Positions 566 to 10,030 of a stretch of DNA of 10,587 bases are shown one piece after another. The notes under the pieces were generated by a model. That model did no database searches. It was not told where the DNA came from and worked only from the letters and a program-made list of their open reading frames with translations. Each line of letters begins with the position of its first letter. Position 1 is the first letter of the stretch. The stretch comes from an uncultured Rhodocyclaceae bacterium. GTDB lineage: Bacteria; Pseudomonadota; Gammaproteobacteria; Burkholderiales; Rhodocyclaceae. Made by a program: the position numbers and the translations under genes. The DNA lies in assembly GCA_903950295.1 (NCBI GenBank), contig CAJBAP010000169.1, positions 1-10,587 of the forward strand, written 5' to 3'.

Positions 566-1147
566 ATGTTCCAGGTTCGCATCCACGGACGCGGGGGGCA
601 GGGGGTGGTTACCGCCACCGAGATGTTGTCCATCGCGGCTTTCGACGAAGGCCGGCACGCCCAGGCTTTTCCCAGCTTCGGCTCCGAGCGCACCGGCGCG
701 CCGGTGGTGGCCTTTTGTCGCATCGACGACAAGGAGATTCGCCTGCGCGAGCCGATCATGGCGCCCGACGCACTGATCATCCAGGACCCGACCCTGCTGC
801 ACCAGGTCGATTGCTTCGCCGGCCTGAAACTCGACGGCTACATCCTGATCAACACCAACAAGACTTTCGAGGAACTCGGCCTGGCCGAGTTCGTCAAGAG
901 CCATCGCGCCGAACGACTCTGCACCGTCTCGGCCACCGACCTCGCATTGAAGCATGTCGGCCGACCGGTACCCAACGTACCACTGCTCGGCGGGTTCGCC
1001 GCCATCTCGGGCCTGATCCGGCTCGAGTCGGTGATCAAGGCCATCGAAGACCGGTTCTCCGGCAAGGTGGCAGCCGGCAACATCGCCGCCGCCACCGAGG
1101 CCTACAACATCGTGCGCAAGGAAATGGAGGAGGCTGCCCATGCTTAA
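566..1147 (+). CDS. porG: 2-oxoacid:acceptor oxidoreductase, gamma subunit (PorG/PorC type)
   Basis: This 193-residue protein is the gamma domain of the pyruvate:ferredoxin oxidoreductase superfamily. The family signature GRGGQGVVTA sits at residues 8-17, and the FPSFGSERTGAPV segment (35-47) matches the family's usual FGxERRGAPV, with Thr in place of the first Arg. The NVPLLGGFAAISG stretch (137-149) is also typical. In well-studied members this domain packs against the alpha subunit and helps form the CoA/intermediate site; it carries no cofactor. A strong AGGAGGAA at 555-562 sets the ATG at 566. It is the first gene of a four-gene operon, and the alpha subunit starts eight bases before its stop. 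The Azoarcus evansii phenylglyoxylate dehydrogenase subunit PadE is a similar stand-alone gamma, so the family alone does not fix the substrate. Confidence 0.9.
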   Translation: MFQVRIHGRGGQGVVTATEMLSIAAFDEGRHAQAFPSFGSERTGAPVVAFCRIDDKEIRLREPIMAPDALIIQDPTLLHQVDCFAGLKLDGYILINTNKTFEELGLAEFVKSHRAERLCTVSATDLALKHVGRPVPNVPLLGGFAAISGLIRLESVIKAIEDRFSGKVAAGNIAAATEAYNIVRKEMEEAAHA

Positions 1148-2393
1148 GCAAATGGAAGGCTCGCGCGCCGTCGCCGAAGCGGTGGCACTGTGCCGCCCCG
1201 AAGTGATTTGCGCCTACCCGATCTCGCCGCAGACACACATTGTCGAAGCGCTCGGCGAAATGGTGAAGGACGATTCGCTGAGCGACTGCGAATACATCAA
1301 CGTCGAATCCGAGTTCGCTGCCATGTCGGTGGCCATCGGCGCCTCGGCTGCCGGCGCACGCAGCTATACCGCCACCGCCTCGCAGGGTTTGCTGTTCATG
1401 GTCGAGGCGGTTTACAACGCTTCGGGCCTCGGCCTGCCCATCGTCATGACGGTGGCCAACCGTTCCATCGGCGCCCCGATCAATATCTGGAACGACCACT
1501 CCGACTCGCTCTCGCAGCGTGATTCCGGCTGGCTGCAGTTGTTCGCGGAAACCAACCAGGAAGCGCTCGACCTGCATATCCAGGCCTTCCGCCTCGCCGA
1601 AGAATTGAGCCTGCCGATCATGGTCTGCATGGACGGCTTCATCCTCACCCATGCCTATGAGCGCATCGACATGCCGACGCAGGCCCAGGTGGATGCCTAC
1701 CTGCCACCCTACGAACCGCGCCAGGTGCTCGACCCCGACGAGCCGGTTTCCATCGGTGCGATGGTCGGCCCCGAAGCCTTCATGGAAGTACGCTATCTCG
1801 CCCACGCCAAGCAGATGCAGGCACTGGAGCGCATTCCCCAACTGGCTGCGGAATTCAAGCAACAGTTCGGTCGCGACAGCGGCGGCCTGATCCGCACCTA
1901 CCGCACCGAAGATGCCGAAACCATCATCATCGCCATGGGTTCGGTGCTCGGCACGATCAAGGATACGGTGGATGAGATGCGCAACGCCGGACACAAGATT
2001 GGCGTACTCGGCATCATCAGCTTCCGGCCCTTCCCGCACGCTCTCGTTGCAGCAGCGTTGAAAAACTGCAAGCGCTTCGTCGTACTGGAAAAAAGCCTGG
2101 CCGTCGGCAGCGGCGGCATCGTCGCCACCGACGTACGTATGGCCGTCACCGGCATGGGGCTAAAAGGTCACACGGTCATCGCCGGATTGGGTGGCCGCGC
2201 CATCACGATGAAGTCGCTCACCGGACTGTTCGAAAAAGCCTGTAGCGGCGATCTTGAACTGCTGACCTTCCTCGATCTCGACTGGAAAGCGGTCAACAAG
2301 CAGCTCGAGCGCGAAAAAACGCAGCGCCGCTCCGGCCCCGTGGCCGAGGCCATGCTGCGTGACGTCGGCGTTGTCGCCGCACGCAACTACTAA
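1140..2393 (+). CDS. porA: 2-oxoacid:acceptor oxidoreductase, alpha subunit (PorA type)
   Basis: This 417-residue subunit holds the pyrimidine-binding and transketolase-C-like domains of a pyruvate/2-oxoacid:ferredoxin oxidoreductase. YPISPQT is at residues 26-32, where Ser29 replaces the Thr of the usual YPITP that contacts substrate. ESE follows at 56-58; this region includes the Glu that activates thiamine diphosphate in this superfamily. SQGL (81-84), ANRSIGAP (106-113, with the Arg aligned to a substrate carboxylate ligand in the Desulfovibrio enzyme), WNDHSDS (117-123) and QRDSGW (126-131) are all family motifs. The C-terminal half (about 250-400) is the regulatory/CoA-side domain. The ATG overlaps the gamma gene by eight bases and has a GGAGGAGG at 1126-1133, pointing to translational coupling; a second ATG at 1152 is less well placed. 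The substrate could be pyruvate or another small or aromatic 2-oxoacid. Confidence 0.92.
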   Translation: MLKQMEGSRAVAEAVALCRPEVICAYPISPQTHIVEALGEMVKDDSLSDCEYINVESEFAAMSVAIGASAAGARSYTATASQGLLFMVEAVYNASGLGLPIVMTVANRSIGAPINIWNDHSDSLSQRDSGWLQLFAETNQEALDLHIQAFRLAEELSLPIMVCMDGFILTHAYERIDMPTQAQVDAYLPPYEPRQVLDPDEPVSIGAMVGPEAFMEVRYLAHAKQMQALERIPQLAAEFKQQFGRDSGGLIRTYRTEDAETIIIAMGSVLGTIKDTVDEMRNAGHKIGVLGIISFRPFPHALVAAALKNCKRFVVLEKSLAVGSGGIVATDVRMAVTGMGLKGHTVIAGLGGRAITMKSLTGLFEKACSGDLELLTFLDLDWKAVNKQLEREKTQRRSGPVAEAMLRDVGVVAARNY

Positions 2394-2404
2394 GGAGAGC
2401 GGCG

Positions 2405-3412
2405 ATGAGTTTCCAACCCATCAAGTTCTACCAAACCGGCACGTTCACCGTCGGCAACCGCCTGCTCGCCCCCGAAGAACGCAGCGTGCAGGCGTCGGGC
2501 AAGCGCTTCAATTCGATCAACTCCGGTCACCGCGCCTGTCAGGGTTGCGGCGAGGCGCTCGGTGCGCGTTACGCCATCGATGCGGCCATGGAGGCCACGC
2601 AGGGTCAACTCATCGCCGCCAACGCTACCGGTTGTCTCGAGGTGTTTTCCACGCCATATCCGGAAACCAGCTGGCAGATTCCGTGGATCCATTCGCTCTT
2701 CGGCAACACGGCGGCAGTCGCCACCGGCATCGCGGCCGCACTGAAAATCAAGCAGAAGAAAAACCCGCGCCAGCAGGAAATCCGCGTCGTCGCCCAAGGT
2801 GGTGATGGCGGCACGACAGACATTGGCTTCGGCTGCCTCTCCGGCATGTTCGAGCGTAACGACGACGTGCTCTACATCTGCTACGACAACGGCGGCTACA
2901 TGAACACGGGGGTGCAGCGCTCCTCCGCCACGCCGGCGGCGGCACGTACCGCCACCACGCCGGCAGTCGGTCCGCAACCGGGCAACATTTTCGGCCAGGG
3001 CAAGTTCGTGCCGGCCATCGCGCTGGCCCATGAAATTCCCTATGTCGCCACGGCGACCGTGGCCGATCTGCGCGACCTCGAAGCCAAGGTCAAACGTGCC
3101 ATGGAAATTCGCGGCGCGCGCTACATCCACATCCTGGTACCCTGCCCGCTCGGCTGGGGCAGCGCTTCGCACGAAACCATCAAGCTGGCACGCCTGGCCA
3201 AGGAAACCGGCATCTTTCCGGTGTTCGAAGCCGAACATGGCGAGCTGAAGTCGGCGCTTACCATACGGCGACAACTGCCCGTGGAAGAGTATCTGAAGCC
3301 GCAAAAACGCTATGCCCACCTGTTCGGCAAGCAGCCTGATGTCGCCACGCTGACGAAACTGCAGGCACAAGCCGACCGCAACATTCGCAAATACAACCTC
3401 CTGGAGCTGTGA
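2405..3412 (+). CDS. porB: 2-oxoacid:acceptor oxidoreductase, beta subunit (TPP and 4Fe-4S binding, PorB type)
   Basis: This 335-residue subunit binds the thiamine diphosphate and the proximal 4Fe-4S cluster. Four cysteines in the PorB spacing are visible: Cys45 and Cys48 (CQGCGEA), Cys77 (NATGCLEVFST) and Cys247 (LVPCPLGW). The Mg/TPP motif is GDGGTTDIGFG (133-143) followed by YDNGGYMNTGVQRSSATP (160-177), which matches pyruvate:ferredoxin oxidoreductases closely. The length (about 310-335) fits the pyruvate/valerate-type beta better than the longer PadI subunit of phenylglyoxylate dehydrogenase, as I recall it; this comparison is from memory. An AAGGAGAG Shine-Dalgarno at 2392-2398 overlaps the alpha stop and supports the ATG at 2405. 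Enzymes with exposed clusters like this are usually oxygen-sensitive, which suggests use under anoxic or low-oxygen conditions. Confidence 0.93.
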   Translation: MSFQPIKFYQTGTFTVGNRLLAPEERSVQASGKRFNSINSGHRACQGCGEALGARYAIDAAMEATQGQLIAANATGCLEVFSTPYPETSWQIPWIHSLFGNTAAVATGIAAALKIKQKKNPRQQEIRVVAQGGDGGTTDIGFGCLSGMFERNDDVLYICYDNGGYMNTGVQRSSATPAAARTATTPAVGPQPGNIFGQGKFVPAIALAHEIPYVATATVADLRDLEAKVKRAMEIRGARYIHILVPCPLGWGSASHETIKLARLAKETGIFPVFEAEHGELKSALTIRRQLPVEEYLKPQKRYAHLFGKQPDVATLTKLQAQADRNIRKYNLLEL

Positions 3413-5034
3413 TGGACAAGCCCTTCGCCATTACCCTCGACCCCGGTTCCTCGCTCGCCAACCTCACCGGTTCCTGGCGGACCTACAAACCGGTCTATCT
3501 CGACCGCCTGCCACCCTGCAACGCCACCTGTCCGGCCGGCGAAGACATCCAGGGCTGGTTGTTCCATGCCGAGTCCGGTGACTATGAAGCGGCCTGGCGC
3601 TCGCTCACAGAAAACAATCCACTGCCCGCCATCATGGGTCGCGTCTGCTACCACCCCTGCGAGGGGGCCTGCAATCGCCAGCATGTCGACTCGGCAGTCG
3701 GTATCAATTCGATCGAGCGCTTTCTCGGTGACGAGGCGATCAAACGCAACTGGCAGTTCGCCAAACCTGCCACCCAGTCGGGCAAGCGCGTGCTCGTGGT
3801 CGGCGCCGGCCCATCGGGACTGTCCGCCGCCTATCATCTCGCCCGCATGGGCCACACCGTAGAACTCCATGAAGCCGGCCCCTTCGCCGGCGGCATGATG
3901 CGCTTCGGCATTCCCAAGTACCGCCTGCCGCGCGAGGTGATTGAGGCCGAGGTGCAGCGCATCACCAATCTGGGCGTCACGCTCAAGCTCGATGCCAAGG
4001 TGTCGAACATCGAAGCGTCGATGAAGGAAGGCAAGTTCGACGCCGCCTTCCTCGCCGTCGGCGCACATATCGGCAAGCGCGCCTACATTCCCGCCGGCAC
4101 GGCGGCGAAAGTGGTCGATGCGATTTCGGTGCTGCGTTCGATGGAAGGCGAAGAGAAGCCCATGCTCGGGCGCCGCGTCGTCGTATACGGCGGCGGCAAT
4201 ACGGCCATCGACGTGGCGCGTTCGGTCAAGCGCATGGGCGCCGAGCCCATCATCGTCTATCGCCGCACCCGCGACAAGGCGCCGGCGCACGACTTCGAGA
4301 TCGAAGAGGCGCTGCAGGAAGGCGTGATGGTGAAATGGCTGTCGACCATCAAGCAGGCCGAAGAAGGCGAGATCACCATCGAGAAGATGGCGCTCGACGA
4401 CAAGGGTTTCCCGCAGCCGACCGGTGAATTCGAAACGCTCGCTGCCGACTCGGTGGTGCTGGCGCTCGGCCAGGATGTCGACCTCGGCCTGCTCGAGGGC
4501 GTGCCCGGGCTGGAAGTGAAGGACGGCACCGTGCAGGTTGGCCCCAACATGATGACCGGCCACGACGGCATCTTCGCCGGTGGCGACATGGTGCCTTCGG
4601 AACGCACCGTCACCGTCGCCGTCGGCCACGGCAAGAAGGCCGCGCGCCACATCGATGCCTGGTTGCGCAGCCAGACCTATGCGCCACCGCCCAAGCACGA
4701 ACTCGCGGGGATCGAGAGGCTCAACACCTGGTACTACTCGGAAGCGCCCCACGTGGTGCGGCCGATACTGGACATTCTGCGGCGCCAATCCACCTTCGAG
4801 GAAGTCGTCGGCGGTCTCGACGAAACCAACGCCCTGTACGAGGCACGCCGTTGCCTGAGTTGCGGCAACTGCTTCGAGTGCGACAACTGCTACGGCGTCT
4901 GTCCCGACAACGCAGTGATCAAGCTCGGCCCCGGCAAGCGCTTCGAGTTCAACTACGACTACTGCAAGGGCTGCGGTATCTGCTCCGCAGAATGCCCCTG
5001 CGGCGCAATCAAGATGGTGCCGGAGGAAAATTGA
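3412..5034 (+). CDS. NAD(P)-dependent FAD/Fe-S oxidoreductase with fused ferredoxin domain (KorC/BzdV/GltD-like), electron-transfer subunit
   Basis: This 540-residue protein joins three modules. An N-terminal Fe-S domain of the glutamate synthase small-subunit/dihydropyrimidine dehydrogenase type has Cys36, 40, 79, 83 and 87 (CNATCPAG and CYHPCEGACNRQ). The GltD-like flavoprotein core has an FAD fingerprint GAGPSG (131-136), a nucleotide site GGGNTAID (260-267) and AGGDMV (389-394). The YRR at 283-285 is often taken to favour NADPH. The C-terminal two-cluster ferredoxin has Cys487/490/493/497-Pro and Cys518/521/524/528-Pro, plus an extra pair at Cys481/484. It replaces the separate delta subunit, which is absent from the operon. 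The role is to link the porGAB enzyme to NAD(P), as KorC does in 2-oxoglutarate:NADP oxidoreductase of Azoarcus evansii. The ATG at 3412 overlaps the beta stop by one base (TGATG), with GGAG at 3403-3406; a GTG at 3409 is the alternative start. Confidence 0.88.
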   Translation: MDKPFAITLDPGSSLANLTGSWRTYKPVYLDRLPPCNATCPAGEDIQGWLFHAESGDYEAAWRSLTENNPLPAIMGRVCYHPCEGACNRQHVDSAVGINSIERFLGDEAIKRNWQFAKPATQSGKRVLVVGAGPSGLSAAYHLARMGHTVELHEAGPFAGGMMRFGIPKYRLPREVIEAEVQRITNLGVTLKLDAKVSNIEASMKEGKFDAAFLAVGAHIGKRAYIPAGTAAKVVDAISVLRSMEGEEKPMLGRRVVVYGGGNTAIDVARSVKRMGAEPIIVYRRTRDKAPAHDFEIEEALQEGVMVKWLSTIKQAEEGEITIEKMALDDKGFPQPTGEFETLAADSVVLALGQDVDLGLLEGVPGLEVKDGTVQVGPNMMTGHDGIFAGGDMVPSERTVTVAVGHGKKAARHIDAWLRSQTYAPPPKHELAGIERLNTWYYSEAPHVVRPILDILRRQSTFEEVVGGLDETNALYEARRCLSCGNCFECDNCYGVCPDNAVIKLGPGKRFEFNYDYCKGCGICSAECPCGAIKMVPEEN

Positions 5035-5104: not shown

Positions 5105-5950
5105 ATGAAATTCACTGCCGACTCTTTTCGTGCCTGGCCGCACAAGAAAGTCACCCTGCTCGGCATGTCGGGGGTGGGGAAGACCTGGTTGTCGTCGATT
5201 CTGCGGCGGCACGACTGGTTCCACTATTCCGCCGACTATCGCATCGGCAAGCGCTATCTCGATGAGCCGATCCTCGACATCATCAAGCAGCAGGCCATGC
5301 AGGTGCCCTTTCTGCGTGACCTGCTGCGGCGTGACTGGATTGATATCAAGAACAACATCAAGGTCGACGACCTCGGTCCGGTGCTTTCATTTGTTGGCAA
5401 ACTTGGAGATCCGGGACGGGGCGGCATTCCCTTCGAGGAGTTCTCGCGCCGCCAGGCGATGTACCGAGAAGGCGAGATCGCGGCCATGCGCGACGTTCCT
5501 TCCTTCGTGCGCAAGGCCCAGGAAATCTACGGCTACAACCACTTCGTCAACGATGTCGGCGGTAGCCTGTGCGAGTTGGAGGAGCCTGCGGTCATTGATC
5601 AGTTGGTCGAGCACACCCTGATTCTCTACATTCAGGTCACCACACCCGATGAAGAAGCCGAACTCATTCGGCGCGCCCAATCCGATCCGAAGCCGCTTTA
5701 CTTCCGCCCGGCCTTCCTCGCGGAATATCTGCCCGGCTTTCTCGCCGCGCACGGACTGTCCGATATCGCCGCCGCAGATCCCGACGACTTCACGCGCTGG
5801 ATCTTTCCTCATCTCTTCCACTCACGGGTACCGCGTTACGAGGCGATTGCCCGGCCTCGCGGCTACACCGTCACTTCGCGCGAGGTCGCCCAGGTCAGCA
5901 ACGAGAGCGACTTTCTGGCGCTGCTGGAAACAGCAATCAGGCGAGCGTAG
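5105..5950 (+). CDS. P-loop NTPase/kinase-like protein of unknown function
   Basis: The 281-residue product begins with a Walker A motif, GMSGVGKT, at residues 20-27 after a short strand (KVTLLG), as in small nucleotide or sugar kinases. A hydrophobic strand LILYIQV (172-178) could be the later core strand, and FVNDVGGS (147-154) is a possible Walker B region. No signal peptide or membrane segment is seen. I recognise it only as a conserved proteobacterial 'ATPase' type and cannot name a substrate. ATG 5105 is the first possible start after an in-frame TGA at 5081, but no Shine-Dalgarno precedes it, so expression may be weak. The gene follows the oxidoreductase operon by 70 bp with the REP-like hairpin between them, and its stop lies 8 bp from the convergent RlmN-like gene. 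Joint transcription with the operon is possible but unproven. Confidence 0.75.
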   Translation: MKFTADSFRAWPHKKVTLLGMSGVGKTWLSSILRRHDWFHYSADYRIGKRYLDEPILDIIKQQAMQVPFLRDLLRRDWIDIKNNIKVDDLGPVLSFVGKLGDPGRGGIPFEEFSRRQAMYREGEIAAMRDVPSFVRKAQEIYGYNHFVNDVGGSLCELEEPAVIDQLVEHTLILYIQVTTPDEEAELIRRAQSDPKPLYFRPAFLAEYLPGFLAAHGLSDIAAADPDDFTRWIFPHLFHSRVPRYEAIARPRGYTVTSREVAQVSNESDFLALLETAIRRA

Positions 5951-5958
5951 TCAGGCAC

Positions 5959-6960
5959 CTACCCAAGGCCAAGGCGCGCACGCAACTGGCCGCAGCCACC
6001 GTCGATGTCCTGCCCGGCCGACTGGCGCAACTTGGCCAGGATGCCGTGGCGGTAGAGTTGGAGCGACATCGCCGCTGCGCGCTCCTCACTGGGCCGCTGG
6101 AAATTGAGGCCATCGACCGTGTTGTAAGGAATGAAATTCATCACGGCATACTTTCCTTTCAGCAGCCGGATAATTCCATCGAGTTCCTCGTCACTGTCAT
6201 TCACGCCTGCAAGCAGGGTCCATTGATACTGAATCGGGTAGCCCGTGGCGCGGGCGTACTGTTCGCCGAGCTCCACCAGTTCGGCCGGCTCGATACGCTG
6301 TGCCTTGGGCAACAGTTGCGCACGCAGTGGCGCGCTGGTCGAATGCAGGGACAAGGCGAGTGCCGGCTTGACGATCCCGCGTGGCAGCCGCTCGAACACG
6401 CGGCGGTCTCCGACGGTCGAGAACACCAGGTTCTTGTGGCCAATCGCGCCAGCCGTGCCCAGCAGTTCGATCGCTTCCAGCACGTTGTCCATGTTGTGCG
6501 CCGGCTCGCCCATGCCCATGAACACCACCTTCTTGACGGCACGCCGAGCGCGGGCCAGCACCACCTGAGCGACGATCTCGGCACTACCCAACTGGCGCAG
6601 CAAACCATCACGGCCAGTCATGCAGAAAGTACAGCCGACCGCACAGCCGACCTGGGTCGACACGCACACGCCATCGCGCGGCAACAGTACGCTCTCCACC
6701 GTCTGGCCATCAGCCAGCGCCACCAGCAAGCGGACGGAACCGTCCGCGCCGGTGTGTTCAGAACCAACCTGCGCCAGAGCTGCCAGTGCCTCCGTCAGGG
6801 CGGGCAAATCGGCACGCAAACTGGCGGGCAGGAAATCCGCCCCCGGCACCGGGCCACTGTCGAGCGGCAGAGCCTGCAGCCAGGCGCGCAGTACGCGCTC
6901 TTCATGGCAAGCCTTGGCGCCAAGGGTACGCAGGCGCTGGCGCAGATGTTCGATGCGCAT
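5959..6960 (-). CDS. rlmN: RlmN/Cfr-family radical SAM RNA methyltransferase, compact paralogue
   Basis: This 333-residue protein has all catalytic landmarks of the RlmN/Cfr family. These are the radical SAM cysteines CxxxCxxC at Cys106/110/113, GMGEP (149-153), LALSLHS (201-207), and the dual-methylation pair Cys99 (GVCVSTQVGC) and Cys323 (QDIDGGCGQL). Family members transfer a methyl group to C2 of adenosine in 23S rRNA, and RlmN also to some tRNAs, using a methyl-cysteine intermediate. It is about 50 residues shorter than Escherichia coli RlmN, with a reduced N-terminus and almost no tail after the CGQL motif. FCMTG also replaces the usual FCSTA. This suggests a second, divergent paralogue, with the housekeeping rlmN elsewhere (inference). 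It lies 36 bp after the diguanylate cyclase gene on the same strand, so may share its transcript. The ATG has no clear Shine-Dalgarno. Confidence 0.9.
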   Translation of the reverse strand: MRIEHLRQRLRTLGAKACHEERVLRAWLQALPLDSGPVPGADFLPASLRADLPALTEALAALAQVGSEHTGADGSVRLLVALADGQTVESVLLPRDGVCVSTQVGCAVGCTFCMTGRDGLLRQLGSAEIVAQVVLARARRAVKKVVFMGMGEPAHNMDNVLEAIELLGTAGAIGHKNLVFSTVGDRRVFERLPRGIVKPALALSLHSTSAPLRAQLLPKAQRIEPAELVELGEQYARATGYPIQYQWTLLAGVNDSDEELDGIIRLLKGKYAVMNFIPYNTVDGLNFQRPSEERAAAMSLQLYRHGILAKLRQSAGQDIDGGCGQLRARLGLG

Positions 6961-6996: not shown

Positions 6997-8814
6997 TTAG
7001 CCTGCGGCCGGCATCTGCCGGTCGCGGCCGAAGAAACACAAGGTGTTCCGCCCCGCCGCCTTGGACTGGTACATCGCGCTATCCGCACGCTTCAACAACT
7101 CTTCCGGAGAAACAGAACGGTCACTGAACATCGCAATGCCGATACTCGAGGTGCAACGATGGCTGTGCCGCGACACTTCGCCCGAGCGCTCGCGTATCTC
7201 GATCATGTAAGGCTGTGCCAGGCTGCGCAGCAGTTTGGTCGCGACGATTTCGGCCTGCGTAGCCGCGATGCCCCGTTCATCGAGTTGCTCGAGGATCAGC
7301 ACGAACTCATCGCCGCCCAGGCGGGCGGCGGTATCGCCTTGGCGGATCGAGGCCTTCAAGCGCGCCGCAACCTCTACCAGAAGTTGGTCGCCGGCTTCAT
7401 GGCCGAGGCTATCGTTCAGCGTCTTGAAGTTGTCGAGATCCAGCAGCAGCAACGCCCCATACTGGTTGTAGCGTTCGGTATTGGCCAGGGTGTGCTCGAG
7501 ACGATCCATCATCAGGCGGCGGTTCGGCAGGCCGGTGAGCAGGTCATGGTAGGCCAGTTGCTGAAGTTCGTTGCCGCGCACTTCCAGTTCGGCCAGCTGG
7601 TGACGAATCTGGTTTTGCATGCGATCGAAGCTGCGGGCGAGCACACCGATTTCGTCCTGTCTTTGCAAGGGCAGATTCTCGAGGGTATTGCTGCCGGTGA
7701 AGGCCTCTACGGCAGAACTCATGGTATTGAGAGAGCGGGTAATGACACGCCCGAGAATCAGTGCGACAAAAATGGCGGCCAAACTGAGGCCGACCATGAT
7801 CTGCACCATGGCCTGTCCCAGCCGGTCGGCATGCTTGACCACGCTGGCGCGGGGCAGGGCCAAGCCGAGGATGACGCTCGGTTCGCCAGAAACCACCTTG
7901 ACCTGCTGGGCAATGAAGGCGGCAACGACAGGACTGCCGGCATAACGGCCGGCGCCGGCTTCGGTGACGATATGCGTATCCTTTTGCTCTATCAGCATTT
8001 GGGTGGCGGGAAACTCGTCCTGGACCAGAAAACGCCGGCCCTTGTCAAAACCGAAGGTTTTTTCCGGGTCGGGATGAATCAGAAAATCGCCTTTGCCGTT
8101 GGCGAAAAACAATTGAAACTCCGCCGGCAGATCGGCACGCAGGAGGCTGAAGATGCCGTTCAGATCGACACTGATGACCACCAGCCCGCGCGCTTTGCCG
8201 GCGCTGTTGAAAACCGGCGTCGCGAGCAGGGCCGTGGGCTTGCCCAGACCGTCATGTGCGCCCACTTCGCGATTCAGCACGATACGTGACAAGTAAGTGA
8301 CCCCGGCGGGCAGCGCCAGGCTCTCATAGACATACGGGTAATGCCCCTTTTCCTGCAAATCTTCGCCCGCAATGCGCATCAGCGCACCCTGGTCGCGATC
8401 AACCCGCACACGCTCCATGCCGTTCTTCGCAGCGGAAATCAGGCGGATCTGGAAGTAGCCGGGATTCGCCTGCATGATCGACTTGAAGAGCGCGGCAACG
8501 CGGTCGGCGTTGGCCGGGTTGCGGTCTTCGAGCGTCGCCAGGGTTTCCGGCTGGGCAGCGACAATCTGCAGGTTGCGCGTCACCTCCTGTCGTGCCGAAG
8601 TAATGCGCCGGGCAAGTACCTGCGTCGCGGTCAATAATTCGTTTTTGGCCGAATCGACGAGCAGGTCGCGACTCGCCTGATACGCGTAAAACCCGGTCGT
8701 GCCGGCCGCCACCATACCGACGACAGCCAGCACCAGGCCGATCTTGGCGGCAATACCGAACTTCAAGGCTGCAGCACCCGCGCGGCGCTGTCGCCGGACA
8801 GAATGCGCTCCCAT
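6997..8814 (-). CDS. Membrane-bound diguanylate cyclase with periplasmic sensor, HAMP and GGDEF domains
   Basis: Numbered from the ATG at 8814 (605 residues), the protein has a first membrane helix at about 25-46, a large periplasmic sensor (47-334, probably double-Cache), a second helix (335-358), a HAMP region (355-408) and a GGDEF domain from YHDLLTGLPNR (422-432). The active-site GGDEF is intact at 500-504. An RxxD inhibitory site (Arg491-Asp494) lies five residues before it, so it should make cyclic di-GMP from GTP and be feedback-inhibited. There is no EAL domain. The ATG overlaps the upstream solute-binding protein gene by 52 bases. A TTG at 8766 that overlaps its TGA stop (TTGA) is an equally plausible start, and neither has a good Shine-Dalgarno. 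The overlap ties its expression to the binding protein, which may deliver the input signal. Confidence 0.9.
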   Translation of the reverse strand: MGAHSVRRQRRAGAAALKFGIAAKIGLVLAVVGMVAAGTTGFYAYQASRDLLVDSAKNELLTATQVLARRITSARQEVTRNLQIVAAQPETLATLEDRNPANADRVAALFKSIMQANPGYFQIRLISAAKNGMERVRVDRDQGALMRIAGEDLQEKGHYPYVYESLALPAGVTYLSRIVLNREVGAHDGLGKPTALLATPVFNSAGKARGLVVISVDLNGIFSLLRADLPAEFQLFFANGKGDFLIHPDPEKTFGFDKGRRFLVQDEFPATQMLIEQKDTHIVTEAGAGRYAGSPVVAAFIAQQVKVVSGEPSVILGLALPRASVVKHADRLGQAMVQIMVGLSLAAIFVALILGRVITRSLNTMSSAVEAFTGSNTLENLPLQRQDEIGVLARSFDRMQNQIRHQLAELEVRGNELQQLAYHDLLTGLPNRRLMMDRLEHTLANTERYNQYGALLLLDLDNFKTLNDSLGHEAGDQLLVEVAARLKASIRQGDTAARLGGDEFVLILEQLDERGIAATQAEIVATKLLRSLAQPYMIEIRERSGEVSRHSHRCTSSIGIAMFSDRSVSPEELLKRADSAMYQSKAAGRNTLCFFGRDRQMPAAG

Positions 8815-9926
8815 AACAAGTTCCGCCGGGCGACATCTTCGACAGGCTCCAGCCAGACCAGGCGATCGCTGGACTGATTAAATGGCGACAGCGACGTCGT
8901 ATTGGCCAACCCCTGGCGCGAGACCAGTGCGGCCGAGGGCTCCGCTTCGAGCAGATAATCGATCCAGGCCGTGGCCAACTTTTTGTTTTTCGCTCCCTGG
9001 GTGATTACCCAGCAATCCAGCCATGCCAAGGCGCCCTCGCGGGGAATCGCATAACCGACATCGACGCCGGCTTTCTTGAGCAATTGCACTTGTTGCGAGC
9101 CATAGTTGGCGAAGAGTAGAGCCGCGCCCCGATTCTTGAAGAGTTCGACGGATTCTTCGGGGCGCGTGTAGAAGGTCAGCATATTCCGGCGCAGATCAAT
9201 AAGCTTGTGCACCGCTTTGGGCCAATCCTCCACACCCATCCGGAACGGTTTCGGCAAACCCAGCGCCTGCGCCGCCAGCGCAAAGTTGTGTGCGCCCCCG
9301 TTGTAGATCAGCACCTTGCCCCGGTAACGCGGGTCCCACAGACTGGTGATCGACGACGGCGGCTCCTTGATCTGGTCACGGTCGTAAATCAGGCCCATTT
9401 CGGCATAGGTGTAGGGAATGGCAAACACCTGCTCACCCTGCATGATGCCCGGAATGTTTTTTCGCTCACGGAAGCGCGGCAATTGCCGGGCCAGATTCGG
9501 CATCGCTTGCGTGTCGATCGGTACTACCAGGGCCGCGCTGATGTAACGCTGTAATTCAGCCGTATTCACGGCAAAGACATCGTAGTCTTGCGCCGCACGG
9601 GTGCTGATTTTCTGCCACAACGCTTCATCGGAATCGATCAGCGTCACTTCCACCTTCGCCTTGGTGCGCTTTTCAAACACCTTGACCAGATCCGCATCGG
9701 CGTAACCCGGCCACGCCAGGACGCGCAACGTCTCCCCGGCAAACACCTCAGCCGATACGCAGAGCAGGAAAATCAGGCCGGCAAACTTGATCAGGGAGTG
9801 AAAAACGGCAAGCAACAGAGGCAACCTTTCGGGGAAGATGGTGCGCCGCAACAGGGCGGCCTTTCGAAAATGTAACACGGCCACACAGCGCCGTCCCGCC
9901 AGCGCCGACTTTCCATATAGACGCAC
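8763..9926 (-). CDS. PotD/NspS-like periplasmic solute-binding protein (spermidine/putrescine-type)
   Basis: A signal peptide (hydrophobic core LIKFAGLIFLLCVSAEVFA at 45-63, cleavage after VFA) precedes a mature domain starting GETLRVLAWPGYAD. The fold and landmarks match the polyamine-binding PotD/PotF family: WPGY (72-75), IPYTYAEMGLIYD (170-182), the SLWDPRYRGKVLI segment (195-207) and AWLDCWVI (301-308). Trp72, Tyr75, Trp302 and Asp304 align with PotD ligand residues. The PotD acidic pair (Asp168/Glu171) appears changed to a YNGGAHNF segment and the middle Trp229 to Phe, so the ligand may differ. No ABC permease or ATPase lies nearby. Instead the gene overlaps a diguanylate cyclase, suggesting a sensory role. 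The first codon given (9926) is GTG with no clear Shine-Dalgarno. A TTG at 9851, with AAAGG eight bases upstream, would give a more normal signal peptide beginning MRRTIF. Confidence 0.85.
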   Translation of the reverse strand: MRLYGKSALAGRRCVAVLHFRKAALLRRTIFPERLPLLLAVFHSLIKFAGLIFLLCVSAEVFAGETLRVLAWPGYADADLVKVFEKRTKAKVEVTLIDSDEALWQKISTRAAQDYDVFAVNTAELQRYISAALVVPIDTQAMPNLARQLPRFRERKNIPGIMQGEQVFAIPYTYAEMGLIYDRDQIKEPPSSITSLWDPRYRGKVLIYNGGAHNFALAAQALGLPKPFRMGVEDWPKAVHKLIDLRRNMLTFYTRPEESVELFKNRGAALLFANYGSQQVQLLKKAGVDVGYAIPREGALAWLDCWVITQGAKNKKLATAWIDYLLEAEPSAALVSRQGLANTTSLSPFNQSSDRLVWLEPVEDVARRNLLWERILSGDSAARVLQP

Positions 9927-10030
9927 GCAGGCCGAATCCGGATAATCACGTCCTCAGTTTCCTTTCACGACTTGTGCCGATAAATTCGGTGCGGGTCAAT
10001 TTTTTCCGCTTCATTCATTGCGAGATCACT
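9927..10030. promoter_or_regulatory. Divergent intergenic region between the solute-binding protein and iorA
   Basis: This 104-bp, relatively AT-rich gap must carry the promoters of the leftward signalling group and of the rightward iorA-like gene. On the minus strand TTGACC (10000-9995) could be a -35 box, but the bases 17 further on do not form a good -10. On the plus strand GATAAA (9979-9984) could be a -10 without a recognisable -35. If the solute-binding protein starts at the downstream TTG (9851), the regulatory region is about 75 bp longer. I see no long palindrome, riboswitch or terminator in it. Confidence 0.3.

Follow-up and report, generated by a model that had tools for sequence, protein, structure and literature searches.

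A binding protein gene joined to a cyclase gene

The window discussed here, the whole stretch of DNA that was analysed, comprises 10,587 bases (GC 58-64%) of contig CAJBAP010000169.1 from an uncultured Rhodocyclaceae bacterium. Its minus strand carries a gene for a PotD-fold periplasmic binding protein (stop at 8763), followed by a gene for a membrane protein with a GGDEF domain (stop at 6997; Table 1). An earlier annotation made from the sequence, here called the original prediction, had placed a PotD-like gene and an overlapping GGDEF gene at this position, and both are there. The two form a conserved pair in which a periplasmic catcher most likely switches a membrane enzyme that makes cyclic di-GMP (c-di-GMP).

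Table 1. Coordinates of the gene pair and its parts in the window
Feature	Position	Strand	Remarks
PotD-fold periplasmic binding protein	8763..9815	-	probable start TTG 9815 (350 aa); open frame reaches GTG 9926
Probable signal peptide of the binding protein (residues ahead of GETLRV)	9735..9815	-	by eye
Transmembrane dCache-HAMP-GGDEF diguanylate cyclase	6997..8766	-	probable start TTG 8766 (589 aa); alternative ATG 8814 (605 aa)
TTGA stop/start overlap of the two genes, 4 bases	8763..8766	-
Periplasmic sensor domain of the cyclase	7855..8640	-	about residues 59-320, 605-aa reading
HAMP domain	7603..7755	-	residues 354-404
GGDEF domain	7045..7554	-	residues 421-590; GGDEF motif and RxxD I-site

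The overlap had been put at up to 52 bases, a start codon artefact that arises because the upstream ATG 8814 is taken as the start. To judge from homologous starts, the genes most likely share only the 4 bases TTGA: 29 of 30 aligned homologues of the cyclase begin at the residue of TTG 8766, and the other (P0231) begins four residues earlier. A 4-base overlap is found in 61 of 80 scored loci, the window included, with ATG as the codon in 45, GTG in 14 and TTG in 2. For the binding protein, TTG 9815 is a more probable start than GTG 9926. A homologue with 86% identity (P0005, 350 aa) begins at the corresponding residue, and GAAAGG sits 9 bases 5' of this TTG.

The binding protein belongs to SBP_bac_8 (PF13416; E 5.2e-31; 108.9 bits; Pfam). 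The PotF and PotD models of NCBIfam match it at 78 and 68 bits, far under their cut-offs of 636 and 582. Pfam searches of the cyclase find HK_sensor_dom_bact (PF21623; E 3.6e-14), HAMP and GGDEF, and no EAL domain, in agreement with the original description of the partner as a GGDEF-only protein with a periplasmic sensor. A dCache_1 match lies just under the cut-off, and the periplasmic domain matches PF21623/dCache in profile and in fold; the dCache domain of a sensory box/GGDEF protein of V. parahaemolyticus (2p7j, 3lid, 3lie) shares 19% identity with the sensor. The GGDEF domain has both its signature and the RxxD motif of the I-site.

Conservation of the pair and the search for a transporter

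A scan of a genome collection yielded 273 relatives, of which the best 80 were kept, mostly from Rhodoferax, Thauera, Azoarcus and other betaproteobacteria. In protein searches, with roughly 8000 candidates scored each time, the binding protein had 2213 relatives and the sensor region 1046. The sensor protein is encoded directly downstream in 79 of the 80 loci, far beyond chance; at the 80th (L029) the contig stops within the binding protein gene. At L009 the sensor is split over two overlapping reading frames. Because the best 80 loci are the closest relatives, a sample of 199 genomes was added from the family of Azoarcus sp. L1K30, with a strong match defined as E below 1e-130; the two sets share some genomes (e.g., L054 is G001). 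Among the 27 carriers in this sample, the sensor is adjacent in 20 and absent nearby in 7. Of four Burkholderia rows at 53-54% identity, the two that were fetched are paired, as are all five strong members found at 29 fetched loci of a phylum sample. A lack of conserved pairing had been named beforehand as a refuter of the original prediction; the pairing is conserved in both large samples, though the 7 orphan carriers stand apart.

A sensor partner acting in trans was considered for these orphans and rejected, as none of the 7 genomes has a full-length one elsewhere; partial sensor matches in three of them (G376, G489, G523) cover about 100-112 profile positions at E 1.7e-8 to 1.7e-5. Seven orphan relatives of the binding protein (L116-L122) have neither sensor nor transporter nearby, and inspection by eye shows a downstream DUF924-like reading frame common to L116, L118, L120 and L122. 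At L124 and L125, sensor-GGDEF proteins related to the partner occur without a binding protein gene in the fetched stretch. Viral contigs gave no confirmed relatives (38 stretches matched a pattern). Clusters of neighbouring genes recur in few related loci only, the larger ones apparently reflecting GGDEF similarity or antisense frames when judged by eye.

The output of the pair is GGDEF-only in 75 of 81 loci, and the GGDEF motif is intact in 73 of 77 and RxxD present in 76 of 77. The same input is also found on a hybrid kinase (L039), on GGDEF-EAL (L060), on GAF-GGDEF-EAL (L076, L170) and on GAF-PAS-GGDEF-EAL (L123).

As predicted, no transporter gene adjoins the pair in the window, according to open reading frames and domain searches. 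Permeases were sought with E. coli PotB, PotC, PotH and PotI in the window and in the flanks of the 80 loci, which span at most 8 kb and less where a contig ends; no similar reading frame was found, and in transporter loci these four queries reach 79-158 bits. On this ground a simple transporter protein was rejected. A PotFGHI-like set does occur in Azoarcus sp. L1K30, apart from the pair and with a binding protein that belongs to it. A permease elsewhere that uses this binding protein had been named as a refuter, and this search was run in part: among 14 carrier genomes no close homologue was found of the permeases of the sister clade described below (best match 38% identity, against 71% within that clade).

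These data bear on an account in which the dCache domain itself binds the signal, the binding protein is a mere deliverer or a spare uptake protein, and the pairing is historical. The sensor does have an invariant core of its own (Y104, R108, G116, E118, R121, D123 and R124, in A3 numbering), and two sensor-GGDEF proteins (G480, G515) stand with no binding protein gene close by. The latter are, however, divergent, scoring 182-205 bits where most paired sensors score 380-660. In addition, over 77 loci the distances of the binding protein correlate more closely with those of the sensor (r 0.83) than the sensor does with its own GGDEF domain (0.71), values that are inflated by common descent and of which only the order is used. 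With no cognate permease in the flanks of the 80 loci, the window or the 14 carrier genomes, this account is very improbable, and a binding protein that acts through the cyclase is preferred.

Origin of the binding protein and its ligand pocket

Trees rooted on PotD were built with FastTree (117 proteins) and IQ-TREE (73 proteins, including 29 of the 89 paired ones). NspS-like proxies stood in for verified NspS: L126 and L136/L172, which lie beside GGDEF proteins, and six database proteins. In both trees, eight transporter-linked proteins join the paired and orphan ones in one group (support 1.0 in FastTree, 100 in IQ-TREE ufboot). A second transporter clade comes next, and the proxies fall outside both clades. 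The node joining all paired and orphan proteins has a support of 21 in IQ-TREE and 0.77 in FastTree, and the orphans are nested inside the paired proteins in the former (93) and sister to them in the latter (paired clade 0.875). Owing to this weak node and the differing placement of the orphans, one recruitment and several fit the trees alike.

The neighbours of the transporter-linked relatives point to sugars. In the first clade, here called the pentose clade, an ATPase and permeases follow the binding protein, and an IlvD-type dehydratase and a XylB-like short-chain dehydrogenase/reductase (SDR) lie upstream, at 8 of 8 loci; GguC/AraD1 is present at 7 of 8 (a 36-bit remnant at L193), several of the eight proteins being close relatives of one another. 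At L165, the L-arabinonate dehydratase model scores 853 bits (cut-off 882), the XylB-like SDR 355 (cut-off 400) and GguC/AraD1 490, above its cut-off of 340. The second clade, here called the fucose clade, mostly adjoins enzymes of L-fucose type: an aldo/keto reductase and a FucU-like mutarotase occur in all six L131-type loci and a fuconolactonase-like gene (235 bits, cut-off 400) in three of them. L132, L171 and L202 have genes of the mandelate racemase or gluconolactonase type. A further transporter-linked relative, L197, is without these enzymes bar a weak SDR match (81 bits). In an order-level sample, 12 of 13 places adjoin enzymes of these kinds.

The window protein shares 43-44% overall identity with four pentose-clade proteins. 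In 16 pocket columns it agrees with the pentose-clade consensus at 12, with the fucose clade at 7 and with PotD, PotF and NspS-like proteins at 4 each. The column of PotD W229 aligns to N274 or to the G276 region by alignment and is not relied on, because two alignments place it differently; without it the agreement is 11 of 15 with the pentose clade, 4 with PotD, 3 with PotF and 4 with NspS-like proteins. The present protein thus resembles the PotABCD/PotFGHI-type ABC binding proteins that accompany pentose-oxidation genes (IlvD-XylB-GguC clusters) in sequence, pocket and tree position; it differs in what follows the gene, an ATPase and two permeases there and a sensor cyclase here.

The acidic residues with which PotD holds spermidine are given as E36, D168, E171 and D257 (PMC11414716). 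The first three correspond to G74, G210 and H213 in the window protein, and D257 is kept as D304; Y85 is replaced by A and Y293 by L. D39, D247 and E185 of PotF, reported as kept in at least 96% of 250 PotF-type hits (PMC8666671), are absent. Polyamine sensing is not supported, since three of the four acidic residues are missing, and a polyamine was dropped as first choice of ligand after this comparison. The pair had been proposed as NspS-MbaA-like and polyamine-sensing. Its architecture bears this out (a conserved pair with no adjacent transporter); the polyamine part finds no such support. A true receptor of that type, in which binding of putrescine, spermidine or norspermidine switches the cyclase, is improbable, as the closest transporter relatives adjoin sugar-oxidation genes and the transporter clades stand between the binding protein and the NspS-like proteins in the tree. 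The remark in the original prediction that the signal may be another molecule was correct.

The proposed receptor and its known counterparts

The preferred reading unites both genes in a single receptor that would signal from the periplasm to the cytoplasm. The secreted PotD-fold protein would catch a small solute, and its closed form would dock on the periplasmic dCache domain of the cyclase. The resulting change may pass through the second membrane helix, HAMP and a coiled coil to alter dimerisation of the GGDEF domain. Synthesis of c-di-GMP would then track the solute and would be inhibited by the product at the RxxD I-site. We infer complex formation and, by analogy with NspS, an increase in cyclase activity by the ligand-loaded protein. 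The ligand is most likely a polyhydroxy compound, neutral or acidic (for instance a pentose, a deoxy-sugar or an aldonic acid), and no polyamine, because the protein stems from an ABC binding protein branch linked to sugar-oxidation genes. That a sugar or sugar-acid ABC binding protein gave rise to such a receptor, by convergence with NspS-MbaA, and that its loaded form stimulates the cyclase seems to us somewhat more probable than not.

Several observations weigh against this reading. Seven of the 27 carriers are orphans, without a sensor nearby or a full-length one elsewhere in the genome. What the transporter relatives carry is judged from neighbouring genes, several of which score under NCBIfam cut-offs, and Pfam and NCBIfam searches find no sugar-use genes in the window. 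Four residues of the polyamine pocket (W72, Y75, W302, D304) are retained, and at three sites (P73, G210, L340) the paired proteins depart from the pentose clade. GguC was not found in any of the 20 paired genomes tested, and both control genomes have it; the hosts therefore do not use the ligand via that pathway, and the protein may have changed in specificity. The three pocket sites and the missing GguC also favour the same receptor with quite a different ligand (an amine, amino acid derivative, organic acid or aromatic), its specificity having shifted after recruitment. PotD-fold proteins are known to bind GABA and opines as well (4eq7, 5l9g). We regard this alternative as unlikely, though a serious contender, since 12 of the 16 pocket columns carry the pentose-clade consensus despite the modest overall identity.

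NspS-MbaA of Vibrio cholerae and Sinorhizobium meliloti is among the closest known counterparts of the proposed polyhydroxy-compound receptor. According to one published model, ligand-bound NspS binds MbaA, which shifts the latter toward synthesis (PMC8079147). The S. meliloti paper counts the pair in 222 of 16,076 complete proteobacterial genomes and describes MbaA as SGDEF-EAL/EVL without RxxD; its section 17, which gives these figures, does not name betaproteobacteria (PMC9993111). The same paper lists eight contact residues for NspS (W41, D70, D90, F131, Y233, D236, W261 and D263). The present pair is similar in that a PotD-fold gene lies directly upstream of, and overlaps, a gene for a membrane c-di-GMP enzyme with HAMP, with no transporter partner. 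It differs in the missing acidic polyamine residues, in a GGDEF-only partner with GGDEF and RxxD (compare PMC9993111, in the part noted), in a longer, PF21623-type sensor, and in a binding protein on another branch than the NspS-like proxies. The conserved pairing, the lack of an adjacent transporter and the GGDEF-only output suggest that it works like NspS-MbaA in architecture. It is not filed as a member of that group, because three of the four acidic residues and the EAL domain are missing.

Two comparisons with NspS-like loci brought out no homology of the sensor to MbaA-type sensors. Alignment of the A3 sensor to that of L126 with hhalign gave a probability of 0.9% and E 0.059 (single sequence), and no PF21623 match was found in the L126 and L172 sensors at 1e-6. 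L126 lies beside a broken GGDEF-EAL gene. At L172 (4527-7062) an NspS-like protein is encoded beside a GGDEF-only membrane protein, so the GGDEF-only form occurs on the NspS-like branch too. Azoarcus sp. L1K30 (L127, 2623-6995) has another pair of a binding protein and a c-di-GMP enzyme: the gene for a GGDEF-EAL protein with a periplasmic domain overlaps by 4 bases that of a differently typed solute-binding protein, which lies downstream.

Sensor kinases can likewise be gated by a periplasmic binding protein, as in ChvE-VirA. In ChvE-VirA and XylFII-LytS a sugar-type periplasmic protein acts through a membrane sensor; here the output is c-di-GMP synthesis, and the ligand class is proposed from sequence comparison. 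Literature searches found no description of the betaproteobacterial pair, most subscription papers being beyond reach. The pair, read as a conserved cyclase gated by a binding protein, is ordinary in principle, new in this lineage and probably new in its class of ligand. More tentatively, the pair may represent a receptor class that extends across betaproteobacteria and other gammaproteobacterial genomes and arose from a sugar or sugar-acid binding protein independently of NspS-MbaA. This class would sense a pentose-, deoxy-sugar- or aldonate-like cue that is not catabolised through the linked pathway, its module having moved to a hybrid kinase and to GGDEF-EAL; we hold this wider view to be possible, at somewhat short of even chances.

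The rest of the window is occupied by other genes. On the plus strand, 566-5034 encodes gamma, alpha and beta subunits of a 2-oxoacid:acceptor oxidoreductase, then a GltD-like NAD(P)-binding protein that carries a ferredoxin tail of PorD type; matches to phenylglyoxylate dehydrogenase models there stay under cut-off, and an iorA-like start lies at 9974. A 281-aa protein at 5105-5950 (plus strand) contains a P loop-like motif (GMSGVGKT); Pfam and NCBIfam give no match for it at E 1e-3. The pair itself is adjoined by a gene for an RlmN-like radical SAM protein of PRK14464 type (5959-6960, minus strand; 613 bits, cut-off 422).

Few c-di-GMP enzymes have a known input. In this pair the gene for the input protein adjoins that for its enzyme, the protein is small, soluble and easily screened, and comparison with its transporter relatives yields a short list of candidate ligands. 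If the proposed reading is true, PotD-fold transport proteins would have entered c-di-GMP signalling on more than one occasion, and annotation as spermidine/putrescine-binding would misname a large family.
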